Shown piece by piece: positions 11,229 to 44,919 of a stretch of 44,919 nucleotides of DNA (the first letter of the stretch is position 1; each line of letters opens with the position of its first letter). The notes under the pieces were generated by a model. The model was not told the origin of the DNA. It searched no databases and saw only the letters and a list, made by a program, of their open reading frames with translations. Source of the DNA: Rhodobiaceae bacterium (GTDB lineage Bacteria > Pseudomonadota > Alphaproteobacteria > Parvibaculales > Parvibaculaceae); contig PAZY01000037.1 in assembly GCA_002715765.1 (NCBI GenBank), forward strand, positions 74,405 to 119,323, given 5' to 3'. A program made the translations under genes and the position numbers.

Positions 11229-14200
11229 ATGAAACTGCAAGAATTGTTGGAAGCCTATCGCTCCACGGCCAGAGACGAGACCGAAAAAGGTCAATATTTT
11301 GAACGCCTGGTCCGTGTTTTTCTAAGTCATGATGACCTTCAAAAGCAGTTCTATTCGGAAGTCATACCCTTTTCTGACTGGGCAAAGGCCCATGGGTGGA
11401 AGAGCAATGACACAGGCATCGACCTGGTTGCCACACTTGCCGATGGTTCCGGCTACGCTGCCATTCAATGCAAATTTTATGCGCCCAGCCACACCATTCA
11501 GAAGCCGGATATAGACAGCTTCATTTCCGCAGCTTCAAACGATGCTTTCGCACGCCTGGTCATCGTCGATACAACGCAAAAAGATTTCGGTCGGAATGCA
11601 ACAGAGACGCTCGATAAGCTTTCCAAAGACTGGAACCGGATTGGCACGACTGAACTGGAAGCCAGCCGTATCGACTGGTCACAGTTCATGCGTACCGGAA
11701 ATGTCAGCCTTGCACCCAAAAAGGAACTACGCGACCACCAGAAGGATGCACTACAGGCGGTTGTAGAAGGTCTGCAAAAGGCAGATCGCGGCAAAATGAT
11801 TATGGCCTGTGGCACCGGCAAAACCTTCACCGGGCTTCGAATTGCAGAAACGATTGCCGGCAAAGGAAAACACGTCCTGTTTATGGTGCCATCGCTCGCC
11901 CTGATGTCTCAAACGGTGCGCGAATGGAAAAATGACTGCCAGGAGGAGTTTACAGCGTTTTCGGCCTGTTCTGATGTCAAGGTCGGCAGAAATGCCGATG
12001 CGGACAGCCTGGACCTGAATATGCATGAACTCGCCTTCCCCGCGACAACCGATCCGGAAAAGATTTCCCGCCAAGTTGCCATCGCCACCCCGGACAAGAT
12101 GACGGTGGTTTTTTCCACCTATCATTCAATTGATGTGCTGACACGCGCCCAGAAGAACCACGGGCTTCCTGCGTTTGATCTTGTCATCTGTGATGAAGCC
12201 CACCGGACAACCGGTGTCACACTCAAAAGCGAAGACGACAGCAATTTTGTACGTATTCACAATGACGATTATGTAAGCGCCAAGAAGCGGCTCTACATGA
12301 CGGCCACGCCACGCATTTTCGGCGATGCAGCCAAGCGCAAAGCTGATGATTACGACGCTGAGCTGGCTTCGATGGATGATGAAACCAAGTTCGGTGAAAA
12401 TCTGTTCCATCGTGGCTTTGGCTGGGCCGTCGAGAACGACCTGTTGACTGACTACAAGGTGGTCGTCCTCGCAGTGGATGAAGGGCTTGTCTCCACCTCG
12501 ATCCAGCATCGGTTGAAAAGCGGTGCTGAACTTACCCTGGATGACGCTACAAAGATTATCGGTTGCTACAAGGCACTGACCAAAGCCAACCTGGCATCAG
12601 ATCTTGATTTTGATCCGCGCCCCATGAAGCGGGCCCTGGCTTTTTGCCAGAGCATTGCGAAATCGAAAATCATTGAGGATGAGTTTGCCAAGGTAGTGGA
12701 GGAATACACCAGCAACGAGCTGATCGAAGATGATGGTCAGCTGGAAATTGAGGTTCAGCACGTAGACGGCAGTTACAATGCCAATGCCCGTGAGCAACTG
12801 CTCAACTGGCTCAAGGCCGATGCCGGCGACGGCGCTTGCCGTATCTTGACCAATGCAAAAGTCTTGTCAGAGGGTGTGGACGTCCCCGCCCTCGACGCCA
12901 TTATGTTTATGCACCCGCGCAAGAGCCAGATTGACGTGGTGCAGTCCGTCGGGCGCGTCATGCGCCGCGCCGAGGGAAAGAAACTGGGCTATGTCATCCT
13001 GCCCGTTGCTATTCCACCCAATACAAAGCCCGAGGATGCTCTGAACGACAATGAGCGCTACAAGGTCGTCTGGCAAATTCTGAACGCACTACGCGCTCAC
13101 GATGAACGGCTGGACGCACGGATCAACCAGGCCAAGATTGGTGAAGATATCAGCGACATGATTGAGCTGGTGAATATTTCGTCAGAAACAGAACTGAAAG
13201 AACTGACGAGCGTTGTTGATGACTTCTCCACAACAAAGAAGAAAGCCGCAAAAGCGAATGCGGAGATTGGGCAGGAAGGTCGTTCGTCCCGGCAGTCAAA
13301 TGATGAAACATCGCAAGGTGAAATGGTTTTTGACGAATTCACCCGTGCCATCATGGCCAAGATCGTCGAAAAATGCGGCACCCGGGAATATTGGGACACA
13401 TGGGCAAAAGACATTGCCAAAATCGCCCAGACCCACATCACCCGCATCACCACCATCGTGGGCAAGGACGGGCCGGAACGCACGTCTTTCCTCGCCTTCC
13501 TGGAAGAGCTTCAGGATGATCTCAATCCGGAAATTTCCGAGGCCGAAGCGATCGAGATGCTGGCACAGCATCTCATCACCAAACCAGTCTTTGACGCGCT
13601 CTTTAAAGGAAGCCGGTTTACCAAGGAAAACCCTGTTTCCCGAGCAATGGAGATCGTGCTGGGGCAATTGCACGAACACAATCTGGCTAAAGAATCTGAC
13701 AGCCTGGCGAAATTTTATGACAGTGTGGAACGCCGGGCAACGGACGTAAAAACCGCGCACGGCCGCCAGAGCCTGATCACTGAACTTTATGACAAATTCT
13801 TCCGAACGGCCTTCCCTGTGCTGACCGCGAGGCTTGGTATCGTCTATACCCCGGTTGAGGTGGTGGATTTTATCATCCATTCCGTCAATGACGTGCTGAA
13901 AGCCCAGTTCGGCCAGACACTCGGCTCCAAGGGTGTTCATATCCTTGATCCCTTTACCGGCACCGGCACCTTCATCACCCGCCTTTTGCAATCGGGCTTG
14001 ATCGCGCCCAATGAGCTGGAGCATAAATACAAACACGAAATCCATGCCAACGAGATCGTGTTGCTGGCTTATTACATTGCCGCCATCAACATCGAAACCG
14101 TCTATCACGAGATGATGCATGGAGATCTGACCAGTGACGCACCCTATGACCCATTCGAGGGCATTCTGCTGACAGACACATTCCAGATGTATGAGCAGGA

Positions 14201-16118
14201 CCGCGGCATGATTGCCAAACTCCTGCCTGACAATTCAGAACGTCGCACCAAGCAGAAGGAACTGGATATCCGTGTGATTATCGGCAACCCGCCCTACTCG
14301 GCCGGCCAAGGTAACACAAACGACAATGCAGCGAACATCACCTATCCGGCGCTGGATATGGCAATCCGCAATAGCTATGCCGCGCATTCTTCAGCTACCA
14401 ACAAAAATGCTCTCTACGATAGTTACATCAGGGCAATCCGATGGGCGAGTGACCGGATCGGTGATGCGGGCGTCATGGCCTATGTGACCAACGCTGGATG
14501 GGTGGATGGCAATGCAACGGATGGGCTACGCAAGTGCCTTGCCGAAGAGTTTAGTGATCTTTACGTGTTTCATCTTCGTGGCAACCAACGCACCTCGGGT
14601 GAGCTCTCTCGCAAGGAAGGCGGCAAAATTTTTGGCTCGGGCAGTCGGGCACCAATTGCGATTTCTGTCCTCGTGAAGAATCCCGACGCCATCGCACACG
14701 GGTGCATCCATTTTCACGACATTGGTGACTATCTCGACCAGAAGCAAAAACTGACGATCATTCGGGAATTTGGCTCGATTGATGGCATCTCGAAAGCCAA
14801 AGGCTGGAAAAATGTTACCCCCGACGAAAACAATGATTGGCTGGATCAGGTGGATCGCAGCTTTGAAAAGTTTCCAATCCTCGGAGCCAAACGCGGGCAA
14901 GACAAAGGATTGTTTGAAGACTATTCGAGGGGCGCTGAAACGGGTCGTGATGCTTGGTGTTATCAATCTTCGAAATCCGCATTGCAGACTAACATAGTTC
15001 GCTTTATCGAATTTTATAATCGCCAGAATGCTCAATTCGGTGGCGGAAAAATATCTAAGGTCGAGGATGTTATTGACTACAATTCAAGGAAGGTAAGCTG
15101 GACAAGTAGTCTTATTTCTTCACTGAAGAGAGGGAAGTCTATTCTATTCGACGAAGCCTGTCTGGCACCTTCCATCTACCGGCCATTTCAGAAACAGCAT
15201 CTATATTTTTCTAACGACTTAACACATCGTATTGGAAAAATGCGGGGCATTTTTCCAAACGCGGATACAGAAAACCTCGTGATCCAAATTTCTGGTGTAG
15301 GATCAAAGAATTTCACTGCTCTTATGTCCAAGCATCTGCCATGCCTCGACAACGTTGAAAAAGGTCAATGCTTCCCCCTCTATCTCTACGAAGAAACCCA
15401 ACCCGATGACGGCCTCTTCGCTACGGATGGTACGCCAACCAGCCTCACCCGTCGTGATGCGATCACTGATGAAGGCCTTGCGCATTTTCAGGCCGCCTAT
15501 CCGGGGGAGGAGATCAGCAAGGAAGATCTGTTCTATTACATCTACGGCCTGTTGCACTCGCCTGAGTATCGTGAGCGGTTTAAAAACAACCTAGCGAAAC
15601 AACTCCCCCGCATACCGGCGGTCAAGAGTTTTGCTGACTTCGCCGCCTTCCGTGATGCGGGCCGGGCGCTCGGGCATTTGCATGTGAATTTTGAAGACGT
15701 AGAGCCCTACATGGTCACCTTTAAAGAGGGGGATCACAGCCTGATAAACGAGGCTGAGGCAGATCCGGTCAAGTTCTACCGCGTCAAGAAAATGAAATTT
15801 GGCGGCAAGGGCAGAGAGAAAGACAAGACCACAATCATCTATAACGACCACATCACCATGCAGAACGTGCCACTGGAAGCGTATGACTATGTCGTCAACG
15901 GCAAGCCGGCACTCGAATGGGTGATGGAACGCCAGGTGGTCAAAACCGACAAAGCAAGCGGCATCATCAATGACGCCAATGATTATGCGAACGAAACAGT
16001 AGGCAACCCGAAATACCCGCTGGAACTCTTCCAGCGCGTAATCACCGTGAGCCTGGAAACAATGAAAATCGTAAACAGCTTGCCGAAACTGGATATCCCG
16101 GAAACAAAGCCAAAATAA
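11229..16118 (+). CDS. Type ISP restriction-modification enzyme (nuclease-helicase-methyltransferase)
   Basis: A 1629-residue single-chain enzyme that both methylates adenine at an asymmetric site and cuts unmodified DNA after ATP-driven translocation, as in LlaBIII/LlaGI. Domains in order: N-terminal Mrr-like PD-(D/E)XK nuclease (Asp65, Gln80-Cys-Lys82), a superfamily 2 helicase/translocase with Walker A ACGTGKT near residue 193-199 and DEAH at 322-325, a helicase C-terminal lobe with QSVGRVMRR, a helical coupler, a gamma-class N6-adenine methyltransferase with DPFTGTGTF near 907 and NPPY near 1020, and a C-terminal target-recognition region. Length matches the family and all motifs look intact. 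AAGGA lies 5 bases before the ATG. Its stop is 12 bases from the convergent portal gene. Confidence 0.92.
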   Translation: MKLQELLEAYRSTARDETEKGQYFERLVRVFLSHDDLQKQFYSEVIPFSDWAKAHGWKSNDTGIDLVATLADGSGYAAIQCKFYAPSHTIQKPDIDSFISAASNDAFARLVIVDTTQKDFGRNATETLDKLSKDWNRIGTTELEASRIDWSQFMRTGNVSLAPKKELRDHQKDALQAVVEGLQKADRGKMIMACGTGKTFTGLRIAETIAGKGKHVLFMVPSLALMSQTVREWKNDCQEEFTAFSACSDVKVGRNADADSLDLNMHELAFPATTDPEKISRQVAIATPDKMTVVFSTYHSIDVLTRAQKNHGLPAFDLVICDEAHRTTGVTLKSEDDSNFVRIHNDDYVSAKKRLYMTATPRIFGDAAKRKADDYDAELASMDDETKFGENLFHRGFGWAVENDLLTDYKVVVLAVDEGLVSTSIQHRLKSGAELTLDDATKIIGCYKALTKANLASDLDFDPRPMKRALAFCQSIAKSKIIEDEFAKVVEEYTSNELIEDDGQLEIEVQHVDGSYNANAREQLLNWLKADAGDGACRILTNAKVLSEGVDVPALDAIMFMHPRKSQIDVVQSVGRVMRRAEGKKLGYVILPVAIPPNTKPEDALNDNERYKVVWQILNALRAHDERLDARINQAKIGEDISDMIELVNISSETELKELTSVVDDFSTTKKKAAKANAEIGQEGRSSRQSNDETSQGEMVFDEFTRAIMAKIVEKCGTREYWDTWAKDIAKIAQTHITRITTIVGKDGPERTSFLAFLEELQDDLNPEISEAEAIEMLAQHLITKPVFDALFKGSRFTKENPVSRAMEIVLGQLHEHNLAKESDSLAKFYDSVERRATDVKTAHGRQSLITELYDKFFRTAFPVLTARLGIVYTPVEVVDFIIHSVNDVLKAQFGQTLGSKGVHILDPFTGTGTFITRLLQSGLIAPNELEHKYKHEIHANEIVLLAYYIAAINIETVYHEMMHGDLTSDAPYDPFEGILLTDTFQMYEQDRGMIAKLLPDNSERRTKQKELDIRVIIGNPPYSAGQGNTNDNAANITYPALDMAIRNSYAAHSSATNKNALYDSYIRAIRWASDRIGDAGVMAYVTNAGWVDGNATDGLRKCLAEEFSDLYVFHLRGNQRTSGELSRKEGGKIFGSGSRAPIAISVLVKNPDAIAHGCIHFHDIGDYLDQKQKLTIIREFGSIDGISKAKGWKNVTPDENNDWLDQVDRSFEKFPILGAKRGQDKGLFEDYSRGAETGRDAWCYQSSKSALQTNIVRFIEFYNRQNAQFGGGKISKVEDVIDYNSRKVSWTSSLISSLKRGKSILFDEACLAPSIYRPFQKQHLYFSNDLTHRIGKMRGIFPNADTENLVIQISGVGSKNFTALMSKHLPCLDNVEKGQCFPLYLYEETQPDDGLFATDGTPTSLTRRDAITDEGLAHFQAAYPGEEISKEDLFYYIYGLLHSPEYRERFKNNLAKQLPRIPAVKSFADFAAFRDAGRALGHLHVNFEDVEPYMVTFKEGDHSLINEAEADPVKFYRVKKMKFGGKGREKDKTTIIYNDHITMQNVPLEAYDYVVNGKPALEWVMERQVVKTDKASGIINDANDYANETVGNPKYPLELFQRVITVSLETMKIVNSLPKLDIPETKPK

Positions 16119-35599: not shown

Positions 35600-37384
35600 A
35601 TGCCGATCACAGTCGATAGAGTTCGAATTTCTGGATTCAGAGGCATCCGAAACTTCGAAATTTCATTGCCACGTGTCGCTGTTCTTATTGGGCCGAACAA
35701 CTGTGGGAAAACCTCGGTCTTGAAAGCCATGCAACTCGCTCTAGGCGACTATGGGCGGTACTTATCAGATGAAGACTTCCACATTGATAGCAACGACGTC
35801 CGTTCGGAGAAGATTGTTGTAGATATCCGAATCGTTCCTACCGACGACAAAGGTTGCCGCGAGCGCACTTTTTCGAGGGAATGGGTCAACGAGTTTGGAG
35901 ATAAAATTCAAGCCGACCTAGAGGGTGCGCAGTTTTTTGCGTTTCGAACTGCTGCGGAACCACAAGCCGCAAAAACAGGTTTCCTAATTGAACGACACAC
36001 CCTCCGTGAATGGGGTGAATTCGCGCATTGGCTTTCGATTGTACCCGTGCCAGGCCAAAAGTTTTCAAGACGCTCAGAGTACGTTCCCTTCGTGGCGATT
36101 GATGCCCAACGGGACATACACCATGAATTAAATGAAAGATCATCTTTTGTCGGAAGAGTGCTCTCGCAGGTTAAGTATGACGAAGCGGACGTGGATGCTC
36201 TTGAAAGAATGATCGCTAAAGTAAACGATGCAGCAGTCACAAAAAGCACTCCCTTGAAGCAACTAAAGGAGCATCTAAGTGCTTTAAACGAGTCGTTCGG
36301 CGGAAACGGAAATGCTGAAGTAACCCCGTTTCCAAAAAAGCTACGAGATCTATCAAAAAATTTCAGCATTCATTTTGGAAACCCTGGTGCAAGCTCATTT
36401 TCGATGGAGTATCACGGCATGGGCACGCGAAGCTGGGCATCAATGTTGGCGGTGAAAGCCCTTATCAAACTGATGGACGAAATGCATAAAAAGGAGTCTC
36501 ACCCCTACCACCCTTTGATTGCCGCCGAGGAACCTGAAGCACATCTGCATCCGAATGCACAGCGGTCCCTTTTCTCGCAGCTACTCTCCGCCGGAGGACA
36601 GGCTATCATCAGCACGCATTCGCCATATCTTGCTGCGATGTGCCCGCTCCCCAATCTCAGGTCCTTGGCGACACGAGCAGGGCACACTCAATGCTTTAGT
36701 CTAATGGACGGGTTGCTGCCTGAGGAACTGCAATCCCTTGGCCGGGAGGTAATGCGCAATAAGGGTGAAATACTGTTCGCGAAAGCGCTGATTTTGTTCG
36801 AAGGGCAGACGGAGGAACAGGTGGTTCCGGCGCTCTTCGAACGATGGTTCCAAGCGACTGCTTTTTCGAAGGGAGTTACGCTGGTCTCTGTAAATGGGAG
36901 AAACTATGGGCCATACGTCAAACTCGCACTGAGTCTCGGGATTCCCGTCGCGATTGTAAGCGACAACGATACAACCGAAGGAGTATCTACAAAGACCATA
37001 GTGGACAACCAAATCGCCAATCTAAAATCAAAAAGTGGACTGGACTTTTCCGAAGAGTGGTTTTCCCTGGATTACCTCTCAAACACGAACGATTTTGAAG
37101 CCGAGATCATCAAGTCATGTAAGCTGCGAGAGGAAGTTGTCGATGCTCTCGTAGAGAGAGCTAAGGGAGTTAACCCAACTGCCGAGTATGCGGAGGCGAA
37201 AAGAAAGGAGTTAGAAGCCTCCAGCGACGAACAATTAATTCAACAAATGCGCAGTGCGAAAACCAGCTACTCTGGCTTTTTAGCAGATGTACTCTTGAAT
37301 AACACTCGCAAGAAGCCTCGTGATACGTTAGTGCCGTCAGCGTTTCAAAGCGCATTTTTGAAAGTGGAGAAATGGGCAACGTGA
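35600..37384 (+). CDS. gajA: OLD-family ATP-dependent nuclease, Gabija GajA-like
   Basis: A 594-residue OLD-family protein. The N-terminal ABC-type ATPase has Walker A GPNNCGKTSV (31-40) and Walker B/D-loop AAEEPEAHLHPNAQ near 308-321, with STHSPY (His switch). The C-terminal TOPRIM nuclease domain carries LFEGQTEEQVVP near 398 (Glu ligand) and VSDNDTTE near 453 (DxD ligands). GajA of Gabija is 578 residues and has this layout; it nicks DNA when nucleotides are depleted during infection. A GAGGAAG Shine-Dalgarno precedes the ATG. GC is visibly lower than in neighbours. Followed by a UvrD-like helicase, 13-base overlap. Confidence 0.85.
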   Translation: MPITVDRVRISGFRGIRNFEISLPRVAVLIGPNNCGKTSVLKAMQLALGDYGRYLSDEDFHIDSNDVRSEKIVVDIRIVPTDDKGCRERTFSREWVNEFGDKIQADLEGAQFFAFRTAAEPQAAKTGFLIERHTLREWGEFAHWLSIVPVPGQKFSRRSEYVPFVAIDAQRDIHHELNERSSFVGRVLSQVKYDEADVDALERMIAKVNDAAVTKSTPLKQLKEHLSALNESFGGNGNAEVTPFPKKLRDLSKNFSIHFGNPGASSFSMEYHGMGTRSWASMLAVKALIKLMDEMHKKESHPYHPLIAAEEPEAHLHPNAQRSLFSQLLSAGGQAIISTHSPYLAAMCPLPNLRSLATRAGHTQCFSLMDGLLPEELQSLGREVMRNKGEILFAKALILFEGQTEEQVVPALFERWFQATAFSKGVTLVSVNGRNYGPYVKLALSLGIPVAIVSDNDTTEGVSTKTIVDNQIANLKSKSGLDFSEEWFSLDYLSNTNDFEAEIIKSCKLREEVVDALVERAKGVNPTAEYAEAKRKELEASSDEQLIQQMRSAKTSYSGFLADVLLNNTRKKPRDTLVPSAFQSAFLKVEKWAT

Positions 37385-39288
37385 GCGTACAACTGTCCGA
37401 AAAACAACGCGAGATCGTTGAACAGCCTCTTAATGGCTCCATCCAGATATTGGCGTCGGCGGGCTCAGGAAAGACGCGCGTGTTAACTGAGCGAATCCGG
37501 TTTATTCTTGGAAAAGTGAAAAAGGATGGAGTGATCGCTCTAACCTTCACCAACAAGGCCGCTGCTGAAATGAAAGAGCGATTGACTTCCGGTACGTATG
37601 ACGAGAATCGGATATGGGTCGGTACAATTCACTCCGTAGCTCAGCGTATCCTTGAACAATATGGTCATACCATTGGTCTACCCTCGAACGTTCAAATTTT
37701 CGAACGTGACAAGGATCGCATGGAGGTGTTTCTCGAGGCATTGAGGGCCGATGGTGTCGACATCGATGATTATCTCAATGTAGACGATCCGAAAGAGAAG
37801 AAATCCAGAGAACGCAACCTTCAGAATTACATGGATGGTTTCTCTACCATTAAGAGAGAAATGCTGTCCGAAGAGGAAGCCTCGGAAAGGTTCTCAGAAA
37901 ATCCGGATGTCTGGCGCATCTACAATGACTACCAGAACGCACTTCTGAACAGCCGAGGAATAGACTACGATGATATCCTTCGATACGCGCATCGGATTCT
38001 TCTCACTCAAACATGGGTTGGGGACCTTTATCGAGCCAAATACAGCCACATTTGCGTGGATGAGGCTCAAGACCTAAATCGGCTTCAGTACGAGTTTGTG
38101 AGAGCGTTGGCAGGCAGCGAAGACAGCAATATCATGATGGTCGGGGATCCCGATCAGATGATTTACGGCTTCAACGGGTCATCGTCCCTGTACCTGTGTG
38201 AAAGCTTTGTCGCTGATTATACACCGAAAACCTTTCTCTTGACCGAGAACTACCGTAGCTCGAGAGCTGTGATTCGGGCAGCAAATCGCCTTCGTCCTGG
38301 CACACAGAAAGAGACCGAATTTGCTCTCGAAGGTTCCGTCCAACTTGCCCATTTTCCTTCGGAAGAAGAAGAAGCAAATTGGGTTTTGTTCCACATTCAA
38401 AGACTGACAGAACTGAAAGAACACCCGGAAATTGAGGGTTACATTTCCGTTGACAACATGGTCGTTATAGCTCGGAATCGGTTTGTGTTTTCCAAGCTTG
38501 AAACGGCTCTCAAAGAACAGGGCACCGAGTATACTGTTAAGGTCGGCGAACGAGAGAAGCTTCCTGAGTCACTATTTGGGCAAGTGTTGGATTGCGCAAT
38601 AAGAGTGAAGCTCAACCCAAACGATTGGGTGATTGGAAAAAAGCTATGCCAACTTCTAGGCATTCCAACCCCACCGGTTTGGGGTGGTTCGGAGCTTCTA
38701 AGCCAGTTTCAAAAAGGTTACTGCTCAAACTCAAATGGTTCCATGGTCAATTTGATCGGTGACCTTTTGAGTGCAGTAGAAAATATGGCCCTCGAGAATC
38801 CAAACATCTTACATTTCGAGAAACAATTCGCAGAGAAGCTAGGTAAGCTAGCCACCGCTGGGCCGGACGAAGAAAGCAAGCTTGAATATGGCCGAAGCCT
38901 GATTGAACTTCAGGAATTTTCGGATAGGTGGACTAGGTTCCGGAAACTGGGTCTCGGCAACTCACTAAGTTCTTTCAGGAATGCGATAGCATTGGGGAAG
39001 CTGAACTTAGATGTGTCAGAGACTGGGTTGACGCTGAGCACCGTCCACGCAATGAAAGGGCTTGAGAAAGATATAGTGTTTTTGATTGGGTTTTGCGACG
39101 GCACATTTCCAGACTATCGCGCCGATACGATTGCGAAATTAAATGAAGAACGAAATGCTGCATTTGTTGCCGTACCCCGGGCCCGCCGCTGGCTCTTTAT
39201 TTCTTACCCGTTGTCCCGGATGATGCCTTGGGGATCATCTCGACCTCAACAGCCATCTCGGTTCATACAGGAAATGGATCTGTCCTAA
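37372..39288 (+). CDS. gajB: UvrD/Rep-type helicase, Gabija GajB-like (long form)
   Basis: A 638-residue superfamily 1 helicase. Motifs in order: Walker A SAGSGKT (29-35), FTNKAAAEM, GTIHS, DEAQD (motif II), GDPDQMIYGF (III), ENYRSS (IV), HAMKGLEKD (V) and VPRARRWL (VI). Typical GajB is about 494 residues, so this protein carries roughly 140 extra residues, mainly in the region from about residue 300 to 520. It overlaps GajA by 13 bases and so is translationally coupled. In Gabija, GajA and GajB form one complex. An unrelated OLD-UvrD pair cannot be excluded. Confidence 0.78.
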   Translation: MGNVSVQLSEKQREIVEQPLNGSIQILASAGSGKTRVLTERIRFILGKVKKDGVIALTFTNKAAAEMKERLTSGTYDENRIWVGTIHSVAQRILEQYGHTIGLPSNVQIFERDKDRMEVFLEALRADGVDIDDYLNVDDPKEKKSRERNLQNYMDGFSTIKREMLSEEEASERFSENPDVWRIYNDYQNALLNSRGIDYDDILRYAHRILLTQTWVGDLYRAKYSHICVDEAQDLNRLQYEFVRALAGSEDSNIMMVGDPDQMIYGFNGSSSLYLCESFVADYTPKTFLLTENYRSSRAVIRAANRLRPGTQKETEFALEGSVQLAHFPSEEEEANWVLFHIQRLTELKEHPEIEGYISVDNMVVIARNRFVFSKLETALKEQGTEYTVKVGEREKLPESLFGQVLDCAIRVKLNPNDWVIGKKLCQLLGIPTPPVWGGSELLSQFQKGYCSNSNGSMVNLIGDLLSAVENMALENPNILHFEKQFAEKLGKLATAGPDEESKLEYGRSLIELQEFSDRWTRFRKLGLGNSLSSFRNAIALGKLNLDVSETGLTLSTVHAMKGLEKDIVFLIGFCDGTFPDYRADTIAKLNEERNAAFVAVPRARRWLFISYPLSRMMPWGSSRPQQPSRFIQEMDLS

Positions 39289-39544: not shown

Positions 39545-40408
39545 TTACCTCGGCTTGCCGGAGAAGATGACAGTGCCAAGGATGGATGCATTGCCGTTGA
39601 CGCGGATGATGCGGTCTGGCCAGTCCGGGTTGAGCGCTTCGAGGAACTTTCGGTCCCCCTCCAGCACGAGTTTCTTGAAGGTTGCTTCCTTCGCATTGTC
39701 GAGCATGACGACAACATGGGAGCCATTTTCGGTTGGGCCTTCAGGGTCCACAAAGATCCAGTCTCCATCGCGGTACTCAGGTTCCATGGACGCCCCGCGA
39801 ACGCGCAGGACAAACGTCTTCTCACTGTGGGGCACTGGACACAAAACCCATTCATCACTCTGGTGCGCTTCAACCGCACTCTCAACACTGGTCCATTCCC
39901 CTGCTTGAACCCAACTCAACAGCGGCACGCGCCCCGCGCCCCGCACATCGACCGGCTCTGTGTTTCCAACACCTGAGTCGACCGTTTTTATAAAGTGAAT
40001 ATTTTCGTTCAGCTGGTCAACTGCAACCCTGTAGAGCGCTGCATAATCAGCCAGGGCCGGTTTCAGTTCCCAGCTTGCCCCCGCCTCCGTTTTCTCAAGC
40101 TCATCAGCACTGATGCCCAACTGACGCGAAGCCCGCTCCACGGTGAGGTCAGCCTTCTTTCGTGCCGCGGCAAGCCTCGCCCCAAAAGCGGCCATCCGCA
40201 TGTTGATCGGCCCCTCCCCCTCACCTAACCATTGTGGATATAAATCCAGAACGCCGGCCACATCAAAGAGTTTGCGTTTTGACACACCACCGCGGGCGAG
40301 CCAGTGCGCGACATTCTGCGGGGGAACGTCACAACGCCTGGCAAGTTCGGCTTTGGTCATGCCCCGTTCTTTCAGGGCTGTTTCCAATCTCATCGAAAAA
40401 TCTTTCAT
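39545..40408 (-). CDS. Phage C repressor, S24/LexA-like, with two tandem HTH segments
   Basis: A 287-residue repressor. It has an N-terminal HTH (MTKAELARRCDVPPQNVAHW, about residues 17-36), a second HTH-like segment (LTVERASRQLGISADELEK, 88-106), then an S24 peptidase domain with cleavage site Ala158-Gly159, the serine in GASMEP (Ser207) and a lysine at 245 or 246 (ATFKKL). Such repressors cut themselves when RecA is activated, inducing the prophage. Divergent from the Cro-like gene with the operator region between. The stretch 39289-39544 between GajB and this gene shows nothing recognisable. Confidence 0.88.
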   Translation of the reverse strand: MKDFSMRLETALKERGMTKAELARRCDVPPQNVAHWLARGGVSKRKLFDVAGVLDLYPQWLGEGEGPINMRMAAFGARLAAARKKADLTVERASRQLGISADELEKTEAGASWELKPALADYAALYRVAVDQLNENIHFIKTVDSGVGNTEPVDVRGAGRVPLLSWVQAGEWTSVESAVEAHQSDEWVLCPVPHSEKTFVLRVRGASMEPEYRDGDWIFVDPEGPTENGSHVVVMLDNAKEATFKKLVLEGDRKFLEALNPDWPDRIIRVNGNASILGTVIFSGKPR

Positions 40409-40434
40409 GGCATCACGATAAATACTTGCAAAAC

Positions 40435-40475
40435 GGTTATAGATAACCATTATGGGTCTATATATAACCAATATG
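40435..40475. promoter_or_regulatory. Operator region between repressor and Cro-like gene
   Basis: A near-perfect dyad GGTTAT-AG-ATAACC at 40435-40448 and a related one, GGTCTATATATAACC, at 40455-40469. The 13-mer ATAACCAWTATGG appears at 40443 and again at 40463, exactly 20 bases (two helical turns) apart. The AT-rich DNA also contains TATATA boxes, so operators overlap promoters in both directions. Confidence 0.65.
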
Positions 40476-40716: not shown

Positions 40717-40992
40717 ATGGCGGCTGTTCTTTCTGTCCGGCGCGTGGCGTGCCCTCATTGCGGCTCGCAAACGCGGATTGCAAAAACAAAGCAGCTCGCC
40801 AAGACCTGCCGCGAGATCACCTGCCATTGCGAGAATGATCAATGCGGCTGTGTGTTTGTGGCGGAAATCACGCCGGTGCGGATCCTCAGCCCCAGTGCCA
40901 TTCCTGATCCGGACATTTTCATTCCCCTTTCACGCCACATCGACCTGAAGCGCCTGCAGGGTGAGCTGTTTAACCCCGTCGCCCGTGCCTGA
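40717..40992 (+). CDS. ogr: Ogr/Delta-type zinc-finger late transcription activator
   Basis: A 91-residue small protein with the exact Ogr zinc pattern C12-x2-C15-x22-C38-x4-C43 (CPHC ... CENDQC), followed by GCVFVAEITPVRIL. In P2, Ogr binds dyad elements upstream of late promoters and recruits RNA polymerase through the alpha subunit. It lies two bases after the Cro-like gene, in the early operon, not after D as in P2. Confidence 0.85.
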   Translation: MAAVLSVRRVACPHCGSQTRIAKTKQLAKTCREITCHCENDQCGCVFVAEITPVRILSPSAIPDPDIFIPLSRHIDLKRLQGELFNPVARA

Positions 40993-42094: not shown

Positions 42095-42352
42095 TCATTT
42101 GTCCAGCCCTGCGGCCTCCCGCAAGGCTTCGTTGATACGGCTTTGCCAGCCCTTCTCGCCGCCCTTCTTGAAGAAGGCAATCACATCCGGGTCCAGCCGG
42201 ATCGTCGTTGATTGTTTGGGCAGAGCGACCTTCGGCCGGCCACGCGCGACCGGCGCACTGTCCAGCTTCCTTTTCCATTCCTTGCTGCTCAGGTCCGGCG
42301 CGTCGTCAGGGTCTTTCCAGGCGCGGCGCGTAGGCTTTTTGCTCGCGGGCAT
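42095..42352 (-). CDS. brnA: BrnA-family antitoxin
   Basis: An 85-residue antitoxin. The C-terminal ribbon-helix-helix (TIRLDPDVIAFFKKGGEKGWQSRINEALREA) is diagnostic of BrnA. It binds BrnT and represses the operon promoter. Its start lies 47 bases inside the brnT frame, so the two are translationally coupled. Confidence 0.92.
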   Translation of the reverse strand: MPASKKPTRRAWKDPDDAPDLSSKEWKRKLDSAPVARGRPKVALPKQSTTIRLDPDVIAFFKKGGEKGWQSRINEALREAAGLDK

Positions 42353-42587
42353 TTGCTTTCCTCATAGATATGATGCGGCAGGCCTTGCCGCGTGGTGTCC
42401 AAACCAGAACAACCATCCGGTCTTCCAGCAGGCCAATGGTGATGAAGCGAGGCTCGCCATAATCTTCCCGGTCGTCCTCGACCGTCAGCGTGGCACCCTC
42501 GAAAATCTCCCCCGCCTTGCCCATATCCAGCCCTCTTTCTTCAAGAGTTTTGAGGCGTTTAGCGGGGTCAAATTCAATCTTCATCAT
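42306..42587 (-). CDS. brnT: BrnT-family toxin (ribonuclease)
   Basis: A 93-residue RNase of the RelE-like fold: KIEFDPAKRLKTLEERGLDM at the start, then FEGATLTVEDDREDYGEPRF, IGLLEDRMVVLVWTPRG and CRIISMRKANAREQKAY. These are the family's usual motifs, and the gene is intact. Two start codons, at 42587 and 42584, give MM or M. Toxin gene precedes antitoxin, as in other brnTA operons. Confidence 0.93.
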   Translation of the reverse strand: MMKIEFDPAKRLKTLEERGLDMGKAGEIFEGATLTVEDDREDYGEPRFITIGLLEDRMVVLVWTPRGKACRIISMRKANAREQKAYAPRLERP

Positions 42588-42785: not shown

Positions 42786-43073
42786 TCAGGCTGTTACAGA
42801 CATCCGCACACCCAGCGCATCCATCACCTTCATGACGGTGGCAAATTCCGGATGCCCTTCAGCGGAGAGCGCCTTGTAAAGGCTGGCACGGCCAAGCCCC
42901 GTTTCCCGCGCAAGCTCGGTCATGCCACGGGCACGCGCCACCACACCCAGCGCATGGGTCAACAAGGCCGGGTCATTCTCTGCCAGCACGGCATCCAGAT
43001 AGGCCGCAATATCCTCGTTGGTTTCAAGGTGTTCGGCACTGTCCCAGGCACGCGTTTTGGTTTTCTTTGCCAT
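42786..43073 (-). CDS. Addiction-module antidote protein (HigA-like)
   Basis: A 95-residue antitoxin. It has the family layout: ETNEDIAAYLDAVLAENDPALLTHALGVVARARG, then a Cro/C1-type HTH (MTELARETGLGRASLYKALSAEG) and the ending FATVMKVMDALGVRMSVTA. It would bind the RelE-type toxin encoded just upstream and repress the operon. It follows the toxin by 9 bases. Confidence 0.9.
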   Translation of the reverse strand: MAKKTKTRAWDSAEHLETNEDIAAYLDAVLAENDPALLTHALGVVARARGMTELARETGLGRASLYKALSAEGHPEFATVMKVMDALGVRMSVTA

Positions 43074-43082
43074 CTCTCTCTC

Positions 43083-43373
43083 CTACAGGTTCTCCGCCAA
43101 TCGCTGGGCAACCTGAATATCCTTGCTCTGTGTTCGCTTGGCGCCACCCGCCAACAAAATGACCAGTGTTTCGCCACGCTGAACAAAATAGACCCGGTAA
43201 CCGGGACCATAGTGAACACGCATTTCAGACACGCCGCTGCCGACAGGCTTACAATCGCCAAACCCGCCCAATGTCATGCGGTCAATCCGCGCCTGAATGC
43301 GCGCACGGGCCTGACGGTCCTTCAATTGCTTGAACTATTTGGCAAAATCTTCCGTCTGGCGAATTTCGATCAT
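43083..43373 (-). pseudogene. RelE/HigB-family toxin with in-frame amber codon 13
   Basis: Read from ATG 43371-43373, the frame gives MIEIRQTEDFAK, then TAG (43335-43337), then FKQLKDRQARARIQARID... and the intact remainder (GVSEMRVHYGPGYRVYFVQRGE, LAGGAKRTQSKDI) to 43083. In this family codon 13 is normally Trp (FAKW), and TGG to TAG is a single change. So the toxin is probably inactive, apart from read-through or a restart at TTG 43325 that would drop the first strand. AGGAGA precedes the ATG. The antitoxin downstream remains intact. Confidence 0.85.
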
Positions 43374-43402: not shown

Positions 43403-43510
43403 AGTCAAGCCTATTGCAGCCGCATATGGCGGATTGACGTTTGGGGCAAATCAGCGCAACTTGGGTTTGCACGTCGAAAAAGGGCGTGCCGGGTTTGGAA
43501 GCCCGACCAT

Positions 43511-43691
43511 CCAACGGCGCTCAAACCGCGCCACACCTGTCACCAGGTCAACGCGGTTTTCTCATTCTTATGGGGTGGGCGTTATGGGGCACCTTCGGGT
43601 GCGCCGGTTACCGTTGGGCCGGTCTTCCAACCTGTTTCGTCTGCCCCACCACCCTTTTGGAAGGGGGTGTCTGGGGCTGCTCAACCAACGG
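43511..43691 (+). promoter_or_regulatory. Leader with P4-CI-like seqA/seqB/seqC pairing sites
   Basis: CCAACGG occurs at 43511-43517 (seqA-like) and at 43685-43691 (seqC-like), and its complement CCGTTGG lies in the antisense RNA at 43611-43617 (seqB-like). The right copy overlaps the ribosome-binding site GGAG (43690-43693) of the next gene. This is the arrangement by which the P4 CI RNA and P1 C4 RNA control downstream genes. Confidence 0.7.
43570..43670 (+). ncRNA. C4/CI-type phage antisense RNA
   Basis: A short GC-rich RNA with hairpins typical of C4: an outer helix GGTGGG (43574-43579) with CCCACC (43645-43650), a tetraloop hairpin GGGCACC-TTCG-GGTGCGCC (43587-43605), and GTTGG (43613-43617) with CCAAC (43627-43631). 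The next hairpin CACCC/GGGTG (43650-43669) closes it. The order 'GGTGGGCGTTATGGGGC' then a TTCG hairpin, then CCGGTT, is what I remember from C4 RNAs. In P1 and P4 it is cut out of the leader transcript and blocks expression of downstream antirepressor or replication genes. RNA ends are not fixed by sequence. Confidence 0.75.
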
Positions 43692-43700
43692 AGACGGCCC

Positions 43701-44009
43701 ATGCCAAACCACACCCAAATTACGCCTGAAGACCGTCCGCACAGTGCGAATGCACGCGCACTCATTGCAGATGCAGAAAATCTCCTCACCCATTTTTACG
43801 CCACATGTGAGCGGCGCTGCACGCCTCTTGCGCTCAACTTCCTCGCGCAGAGCACGGGAGAGCTTCTCACCCGCTATCTCGCACTGACAGACGCCATTGA
43901 AGACCTGGAAGAGAGTGAGCATCGCTGGCTCAGCTTCTGGCTCGCGGCCCTCGCCGCGCACTTGCGCATCTTGTCAGACGCCCTCCGCGATGCGGGAGAT
44001 GAGCAATGA
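43701..44009 (+). CDS. Small protein downstream of the C4-like RNA
   Basis: A 102-residue, mostly helical acidic protein (ARALIADAENLLTHFYATCE, LTRYLALTDAIEDLEESEHR) that I do not recognise. It is the first gene after the C4-like leader, the position of icd/ant in P1. GGAG, 7 bases before the ATG, overlaps the seqC-like site, so translation may be blocked by the RNA. The frame is open far upstream (to 42054) but that part is antisense to real genes. It overlaps the next gene (ATGA). Confidence 0.65.
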   Translation: MPNHTQITPEDRPHSANARALIADAENLLTHFYATCERRCTPLALNFLAQSTGELLTRYLALTDAIEDLEESEHRWLSFWLAALAAHLRILSDALRDAGDEQ

Positions 44010-44185
44010 CCACATTCCAGATCTATCTCAATGATGATGGGGAGACGGTGCGCGTGCGCGCCTTCTGCGATGGCGACGCGATTGCGGATCTGCAGGTCGC
44101 CAATTGGGACAGCGCATTCGATGAGTGCATCCACGCCCTCAAAAACGGCCAAGCGAAGGCGCGTGATGAGGAGGTCCAAGAATGA
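44006..44185 (+). CDS. Small hypothetical protein coupled to the previous gene
   Basis: A 59-residue protein (MTTFQIYLNDDGETVRVRAF ... DAFDECIHALKNGQ) of strand-then-helix type, unrecognised. Its ATG overlaps the previous stop by 4 bases. Its stop is 8 bases from the convergent edge gene. Confidence 0.6.
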   Translation: MTTFQIYLNDDGETVRVRAFCDGDAIADLQVANWDSAFDECIHALKNGQAKARDEEVQE

Positions 44186-44193
44186 GCTGTGAC

Positions 44194-44919
44194 TTACAAA
44201 TGGCCAGGTGGTCGAGGTCCAAGTTGGTACTCTGCTATCAAACTGGGGCCCATCATTTCGACGCCCTGATAAAGTTGACCAATTGTTTCGATGGGTACGC
44301 TCAGCCAGTTTTCCACTTCCTCGTCTGTCGGCATTCGGCCGCTCTCATGTATAGCCTTTTCATACTTCTCGAGCAGAAACACTGTTCGCATAGCGTAACG
44401 TTCCATTTGCTCAAATGCCCACACTTCAACTTCAAACAAACTAGAAAATGCTTCCGCCCGTGCATTCGGGTCTTTCCATTCTGCGATCCACTTTCGTGCC
44501 ATGAATTCTGTTTGGGAAACAATATTCCTGACCTCTGGATGTATGTTCCTTTGCGGCATCGAAGGAAAATCAGGCGGCGCCATACCCTCGAACTCCAAGA
44601 TCAATGCTTCCCTTGTCTCAGTATCGTTCACAATATTTTTGCCGCCGCGCAGTTCAAATGCCATCATCGCTCGATGCATGAGTTGTCTTATGTCGACGAC
44701 AAATGTCGCAGTACCAATGTGGCATTCCCGGAGATCGCCGCCGAAATCAAGAGCATTCCGCCTCTCCTGCGCCGCCCTGTTTTCATCAACTTGTGCTTGC
44801 GTAGCATCAATCTGTTCTTGCATCTTAGAAACTGTCATCCAAGCACCAAAAAGAGCCACTACGCCGGCGACAATTGCCCCCCAATCACGAGCGATATCGG
44901 ACCATGTATAATCTGGTGG
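44194..44919 (-). CDS. Membrane-anchored hypothetical protein, N-terminus beyond the window
   Basis: The minus-strand frame is open from the window edge to a stop at 44194 (at least 241 residues). Near the edge is a hydrophobic segment (WGAIVAGVVALFGAWMTV), likely one membrane anchor, followed by a coiled-coil-prone stretch (SKMQEQIDATQAQVDENRAAQERR) and a helical soluble domain ending LIAEYQLGPRPPGHL. I do not recognise the family. The GC content is lower and it is oriented against the early genes, which fits a moron carried by the prophage, such as a superinfection-exclusion protein, but no function can be proven. Internal ATGs (44859 region) are alternatives if it starts inside the window. 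Confidence 0.55.
   Translation of the reverse strand, partial: PPDYTWSDIARDWGAIVAGVVALFGAWMTVSKMQEQIDATQAQVDENRAAQERRNALDFGGDLRECHIGTATFVVDIRQLMHRAMMAFELRGGKNIVNDTETREALILEFEGMAPPDFPSMPQRNIHPEVRNIVSQTEFMARKWIAEWKDPNARAEAFSSLFEVEVWAFEQMERYAMRTVFLLEKYEKAIHESGRMPTDEEVENWLSVPIETIGQLYQGVEMMGPSLIAEYQLGPRPPGHL

Follow-up and report, generated by a model that had tools for sequence, protein, structure and literature searches.

The window, by which we mean the whole stretch of 44,919 nucleotides analyzed here, contains a P2-like prophage with what is very probably an antisense RNA locus of the C4/IsrK type, the type of the immI region of phage P1, acting by the mechanism proposed below. Weinberg and colleagues (PMC2864571) compiled a catalogue of C4 RNAs and a1b1 sites from Proteobacteria and phages, and the locus in the window is a further C4 RNA of this type, the notable feature of which is its position. 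In the literature searched, no account was found of a C4 RNA at the head of the replication genes in P2-like prophages.

The C4 RNA, its target words and its leader

The C4 antisense RNA lies on the forward strand at 43566-43653, where the Rfam C4 model (RF01695) is matched over its full length (model positions 1-87 of 87) with 62.7 bits and an E-value of 6.2e-10, above the gathering score of 45 bits. RNA folding gave a closed, self-contained structure for the C4 RNA, both alone and within the whole leader. Two antisense words lie in this fold, a' (CCGTTGG, 43611-43617, forward strand) in a hairpin loop and b' (CTTCCAA, 43624-43630, forward strand) in a single-stranded linker. The corresponding targets, also on the forward strand, are b1 (TTGGAAG, 43495-43501) and a1 (CCAACGG, 43511-43517) upstream of the C4 RNA, and b2 (TTGGAAG, 43657-43663) and a2 (CCAACGG, 43685-43691) in the mRNA leader downstream of it. 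All four are exact 7-nt complements of a' or b', and the order known from P1 is complete, with b1-a1, then a'-b' within the C4 RNA, then b2-a2. The word a2 overlaps the Shine-Dalgarno sequence GGAG of the putative controlled gene, which encodes a protein of 102 aa (43701-44009, forward strand) and whose stop codon overlaps the start of a second ORF of 59 aa (44006-44185, forward strand) in the sequence ATGA.

These results bear directly on the earlier note, which had described a C4-type RNA with CCAACGG at 43511 and 43685 and the complementary word in a loop at 43611-43617, had placed the downstream copy on the ribosome-binding site of the gene at 43701, and had proposed a covariance-model scan and a folding of the region with and without the leader. 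The copies are exact and the downstream one does cover the ribosome-binding site; the scan returned the full-length match given above, and the C4 domain was closed in both foldings. The scheme of one matching word in three places stands for the a word, and it is to be revised in that each target consists of two contact words, a and b, instead of one.

It should be noted that CCAACGG is not rare by itself, with 7 matches in the window against about 8.7 expected, so the evidence lies in position and structure. When the leader and the start of the mRNA were shuffled, the a triad as placed (CCAACGG, CCGTTGG, CCAACGG) was reached in 21 of 20,000 shuffles and the b triad (TTGGAAG, CTTCCAA, TTGGAAG) in 6 of 20,000, while both triads jointly were reached in none of the 20,000. 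Calculated energies are not decisive. Among the 8,976 stretches into which the window was divided for comparison, 20 equal or beat the bare duplex with a1-b1 (-30.6 kcal/mol) and 387 that with a2-b2 (-24.0 kcal/mol), which is not exceptional; a2-b2 is not singled out by duplex energy alone. Co-folding of the full-length C4 RNA with either target gave a gain of only about 2 kcal/mol, in a method whose model does not include loop contacts.

Upstream of the C4 RNA, a putative leader RNA of the IsrK or c4-a1b1 type extends over 43469-43563 on the forward strand, with matches to both Rfam models below threshold. The isrK model (RF01394) scored 40.6 bits (E 2.6e-7 for 631 bases; gathering score 50), and the c4-a1b1 model (RF03163) scored 20 bits at 43460-43509 (E 0.014; gathering score 46.7). 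Judged by its sequence, the leader is IsrK-like and not a curated member of the IsrK family. It ends in a terminator-like hairpin between leader and C4 RNA (43523-43563, forward strand), with the stem AACCGCG...CGCGGTT and a T/C-rich tail after it, and similar hairpins are found in the alignment of L001-L007, the seven C4 loci compared in the next section. A putative promoter, TTGACG-17-CAACTT, lies at 43434-43462 on the forward strand and predicts a start near 43469. The first box TTGAC, the spacing of 17 and a second box CANNTT occur at the same place in L001-L005 and in the degraded locus L251, and are absent from L006 and L007. A sigma-70 consensus scan reported no promoter on the right strand at the leader, and the consensus terminator scan did not flag the hairpin at 43523-43563, so we infer both elements; the putative promoter is weak by consensus.

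Covariation of the words and diversity of the downstream genes

C4 RNAs above the cut-off occur in the genome of the window and in three related genomes, of its genus or family, and a genome from a different order (G155) contains three of them. Each of the seven loci has a and b words that agree between the upstream site, the C4 RNA and the downstream site, and most loci differ from one another in the words they use; examples of a words are CCAACGG, CCTATGG, CTCAAGG, CCGTAGG and TCACAGG. Within a locus, the a word is matched at both flanks over 6-8 nt and the b word over 7, including all four target words of the window, whereas a words swapped between loci reached a match of at least 6 in only 2 of 42 pairings. 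The earlier note had held that homologous leaders whose three sites fail to covary would speak against it; the sites covary in every one of the seven. Within G155, the three loci (L005, L006, L007) have different a words, and L005 and L006 have the b word in common. A degraded C4 RNA in a genome of the same genus (L251, G001:C21:56252-56340, 42.7 bits) has kept its upstream a1 and b1 matches, and no downstream target sites were found for it.

Further C4 loci came from pattern scans of collections of viral sequences and of genomes, and the whole set comprises 196 distinct loci. Here, a match of at least 6 nt on both flanks was present in 62% of the loci for a, against 6.7% with the loops of other loci, and in 92% for b, against 16%. 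All four sites could be located in 108 of the 196 loci, and in each of these 108 the order was b-a before and b-a after the C4 RNA; a Shine-Dalgarno-like motif lay at a2 in 88 of them. A nucleotide search of phages with the locus of the window gave no match.

The first gene after the C4 RNA is mostly a small, fast-changing ORF, for example DUF3077 or Icd-like. A primase lies within 6 kb in at least 32 of the 196 loci, and an antirepressor match within 6 kb in at least 37. Both are lower bounds because some loci are short; less than 3 kb of sequence was available for 49 of those in which no antirepressor was matched. Antirepressors are therefore a minority among the downstream genes found at C4 loci. 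This bears on one remark in the earlier note, in which the genes at 43701 and 44006 were said not to be known antirepressors. The description is borne out, as neither ORF matched an antirepressor family in PHROGs or Pfam, unlike the P1 immI operon with ant under C4 control; a target other than an antirepressor is, however, the usual case. In the same class, G155 carries a C4 RNA ahead of a true AntA/KilAC antirepressor. In a cluster of 9 loci (including L063), the first gene after the C4 RNA matches the Pfam model for Tad2-like proteins (Thoeris anti-defence), and a link between C4 control and anti-defence genes is possible through this cluster.

The protein of 102 aa had no match above the cut-off in Pfam, PHROG or NCBIfam and no Icd-like match, and the protein of 59 aa had none in Pfam or PHROG. 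The GC content by codon position of the longer ORF is coding-like. Its predicted structure is mostly helical, with three helices and moderate confidence (mean pLDDT 71), and comparison with viral folds gave none at E 0.001 (best E 0.15). One relative, weak and short, was found in viral contigs; a search of 39 further genomes of its family gave none. Compared as profiles with other C4 target clusters, the match was limited to the first 11 residues and to those of L002/L003. The first residues MPNxTQ are common to the target ORFs of the window and of the relatives G003 and G004, and the proteins differ beyond them, which suggests that the leader has recombined before different genes.

Prophage context and the primase

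Portal, terminase, scaffold, capsid, sheath, tape measure and D genes occur in the P2 order, as in Peduoviridae, and the best matches of the terminase are P2-like phages, so that structural genes and terminase agree with the P2-like prophage of the earlier note. A 16S search of the same genome gave none, and the apparent alphaproteobacterial nature of the host is based on plasmid matches of a neighbouring host gene. Two further systems border the structural module. A Gabija defence pair (35600-39288, forward strand; GajA 35600-37384, GajB 37372-39288) directly follows the tail gene D, and a very large type IIG restriction enzyme-methyltransferase (11229-16118, forward strand) adjoins the portal gene at the other end.

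A CI-like repressor with Peptidase_S24 and HTH domains is encoded at 39545-40450 on the reverse strand and is 68-69% identical to the syntenic repressors in G003 and G004; its start was set by the length of these relatives in an ORF open to 40789. A Cro-like transcription regulator (phrog_603, E 2.6e-20) is encoded at 40717-40992 on the forward strand. Similar Cro-like genes are found next to the repressors of G003 and G004, and G009 has one as well. The earlier suggestion of two immunity layers is retained in so far as the prophage has a repressor elsewhere, and corrected as to the kind of this repressor, since it is an S24/HTH CI-like repressor with Cro and not the P2 C repressor. Between the early genes and the C4 locus lies a BrnT-type toxin gene (42306-42587, reverse strand). 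The C4 locus is adjoined by a Gp49/HigB-type toxin gene (43083-43373, reverse strand) with an in-frame TAG at 43335-43337 (codon 13), the antitoxin-type partner of which (42786-43073, HI1420 family) is intact.

In G003 and G004 the gene order is tail genes, repressor, cro, C4 RNA, a small ORF of about 110 aa and a primase with a Toprim domain, followed in G003 by an HTH gene and an integrase; G009 shows the order C4 RNA, small ORF, primase. The question of which gene follows the leader in relatives, raised in the earlier note, is thereby answered for these syntenic prophages, in which the primase recurs downstream. The window ends at a contig end. On a different contig of this genome, a primase with 79% identity to the G003 primase starts 149 bases from the contig's end, as predicted by the syntenic order. 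Both the gap between the contigs and a gene on the opposite strand stand in the way of this link, and co-transcription of the C4 operon and the primase is conjectural. The opposite-strand gene (44194-44919, reverse strand) lies near the contig end and has no family assigned. At the end of contig C46 a membrane protein appears to begin, in the same orientation as this gene, and the contig of the window and C46 may join inside it.

The same arrangement was met further afield, in unrelated viral contigs and in prophages of other proteobacteria. In L070, L102, L118 and L143, the C4 RNA and one or more small ORFs lie 0.6-1.2 kb upstream of a primase 46-52% identical, and in three of these (L070, L102 and L143, two viral contigs and a Dyella genome) isrK, c4-a1b1 and C4 are all above threshold. 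Fifteen further C4 loci are situated close upstream of another primase cluster, P4-like in appearance. Among six phages with the same primase (Dobby, Smp131, 4908, ZY1, ESSI2 and phi3), no C4 RNA at the gathering score was found in the scanned stretches. In Stenotrophomonas phage Smp131, sRNA-Xcc1 (RF02221; L255:4950-5037) lies upstream of the same primase type, at the place held elsewhere by the C4 RNA.

Proposed mechanism and relation to known systems

A single transcript is proposed to start near 43469. Part of the transcripts would stop at the hairpin at 43523-43563, giving a short leader RNA with b1-a1, and read-through would give the C4 RNA, freed by processing, together with the mRNA of the 102-aa and 59-aa genes. 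Such a scheme of short and long transcripts has been shown experimentally for IsrK (PMC4825925). In the lysogen, a' and b' of the C4 RNA would pair with b2-a2 and mask the Shine-Dalgarno sequence, leaving the small operon silent, and the C4 RNA of a resident prophage would also silence an incoming phage bearing the same words. The b1-a1 leader could act as a counter-element that titrates the C4 RNA, as in IsrK-like activation, or as a premature termination site, as in P4. In the syntenic prophages the C4 locus has the repressor/cro switch on one side and the primase on the other, so its role is likely the gating of an early, replication-side operon, which would form a second layer beneath the S24 repressor. 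C4 of P1 represses Ant synthesis (PMC8546580; review PMC12197685), and by analogy a translation block is expected in the window; a P4 CI-like termination effect may coexist.

Such an effect might also be the principal one. The RNA would then mainly stop transcription in the leader by pairing with b1-a1 and b2-a2, thereby shutting the downstream replication genes. We regard this as unlikely, and still as the strongest of the rival explanations. It gains from the position ahead of a replication primase, like that of P4 CI RNA in the P4 scheme (PMC4825925), from the hairpin between leader and C4 RNA kept in relatives, and from the 15 further loci near the P4-like-looking primase cluster. The position of a2 on the Shine-Dalgarno sequence, together with the similar motif in most four-site loci (88 of 108), fits a translation block, and the consensus scan found no strong intrinsic terminator downstream of a2. 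It is improbable that the C4 RNA is never released and that the three copies are merely alternative structures of one mRNA, even if all elements lie on one transcript and the IsrK mRNA itself alternates between two structures (PMC4825925). The closed C4 domain, alone and inside the whole leader, argues for a separate RNA, as do the trans action of IsrK (PMC4825925) and the description of P1 C4 as a processed, trans-acting RNA of 77 nt in a paper cited in PMC8546580.

Slightly more improbable again is a decayed, non-functional locus in this prophage. Decay is visible in the vicinity, as the stop in the neighbouring toxin gene, and in a related genome, as the degraded C4 RNA without downstream sites (L251, 42.7 bits); in the window, by contrast, the four words match exactly, both ORFs are intact and overlap at ATGA, and the primase on the other contig is open. 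Chance repeats in G+C-rich sequence, for which the ordinary frequency of CCAACGG might speak, were considered and rejected on the covariation in seven loci, and their probability is negligible in view of the Rfam match, the shuffles, the flank matches in 196 loci and the order of the four sites.

The preferred reading, a C4/IsrK-type RNA acting on the small operon, would extend RNA immunity of the P1 C4 kind to P2-like prophages of an apparent alphaproteobacterium. The words diverge in step in the RNA and its targets, which is what an immunity specificity private to each prophage would lead one to expect, and the recurring replication primase as a neighbour connects the pictures of P1 C4 and P4 CI. 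A broader proposal is offered tentatively and could well prove wrong: among alphaproteobacteria and certain other proteobacteria, P2-like prophages might use a C4 RNA unaccompanied by any antirepressor to gate a replication operon of small ORF and primase, as a P4 CI-like replication-immunity RNA instead of an antirepressor switch, with the leader a portable cassette before ever-changing small targets, each with its private word pair.

Compared with known systems, the locus in the window shares with C4 of P1 and P7 (immI; RF01695) the fold, the a' and b' words, the targets before and after the RNA and the second target on a ribosome-binding site. In P1 and P7 it is icd or ant that is controlled, whereas in the window it would be the 102-aa protein, of unassigned family, in a P2-like prophage of an apparently alphaproteobacterial host, with a primase as the recurring next gene in relatives. 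The arrangement is also like that of Gifsy-1, IsrK - STnc1160 - orf45 - anrP (RF01394), in which a short leader RNA with its own terminator is followed by a C4-like RNA and then by a small ORF with coupling to the gene after it (PMC4825925); in the window, an anrP-like gene is absent, the 59-aa ORF stands instead, and the leader match is below the gathering score. The layout of C4 RNA, small ORF and primase is the same as in L070, L102, L118 and L143, although the sequences of the target ORFs are unrelated. Finally, CI RNA of the phage-plasmid P4 (seqA/seqC) acts on transcription termination (summary in PMC4825925), whereas the site in the window, as far as can be read from its sequence, sits on a ribosome-binding site; both RNAs lie upstream of replication genes and are flanked by complementary sites.
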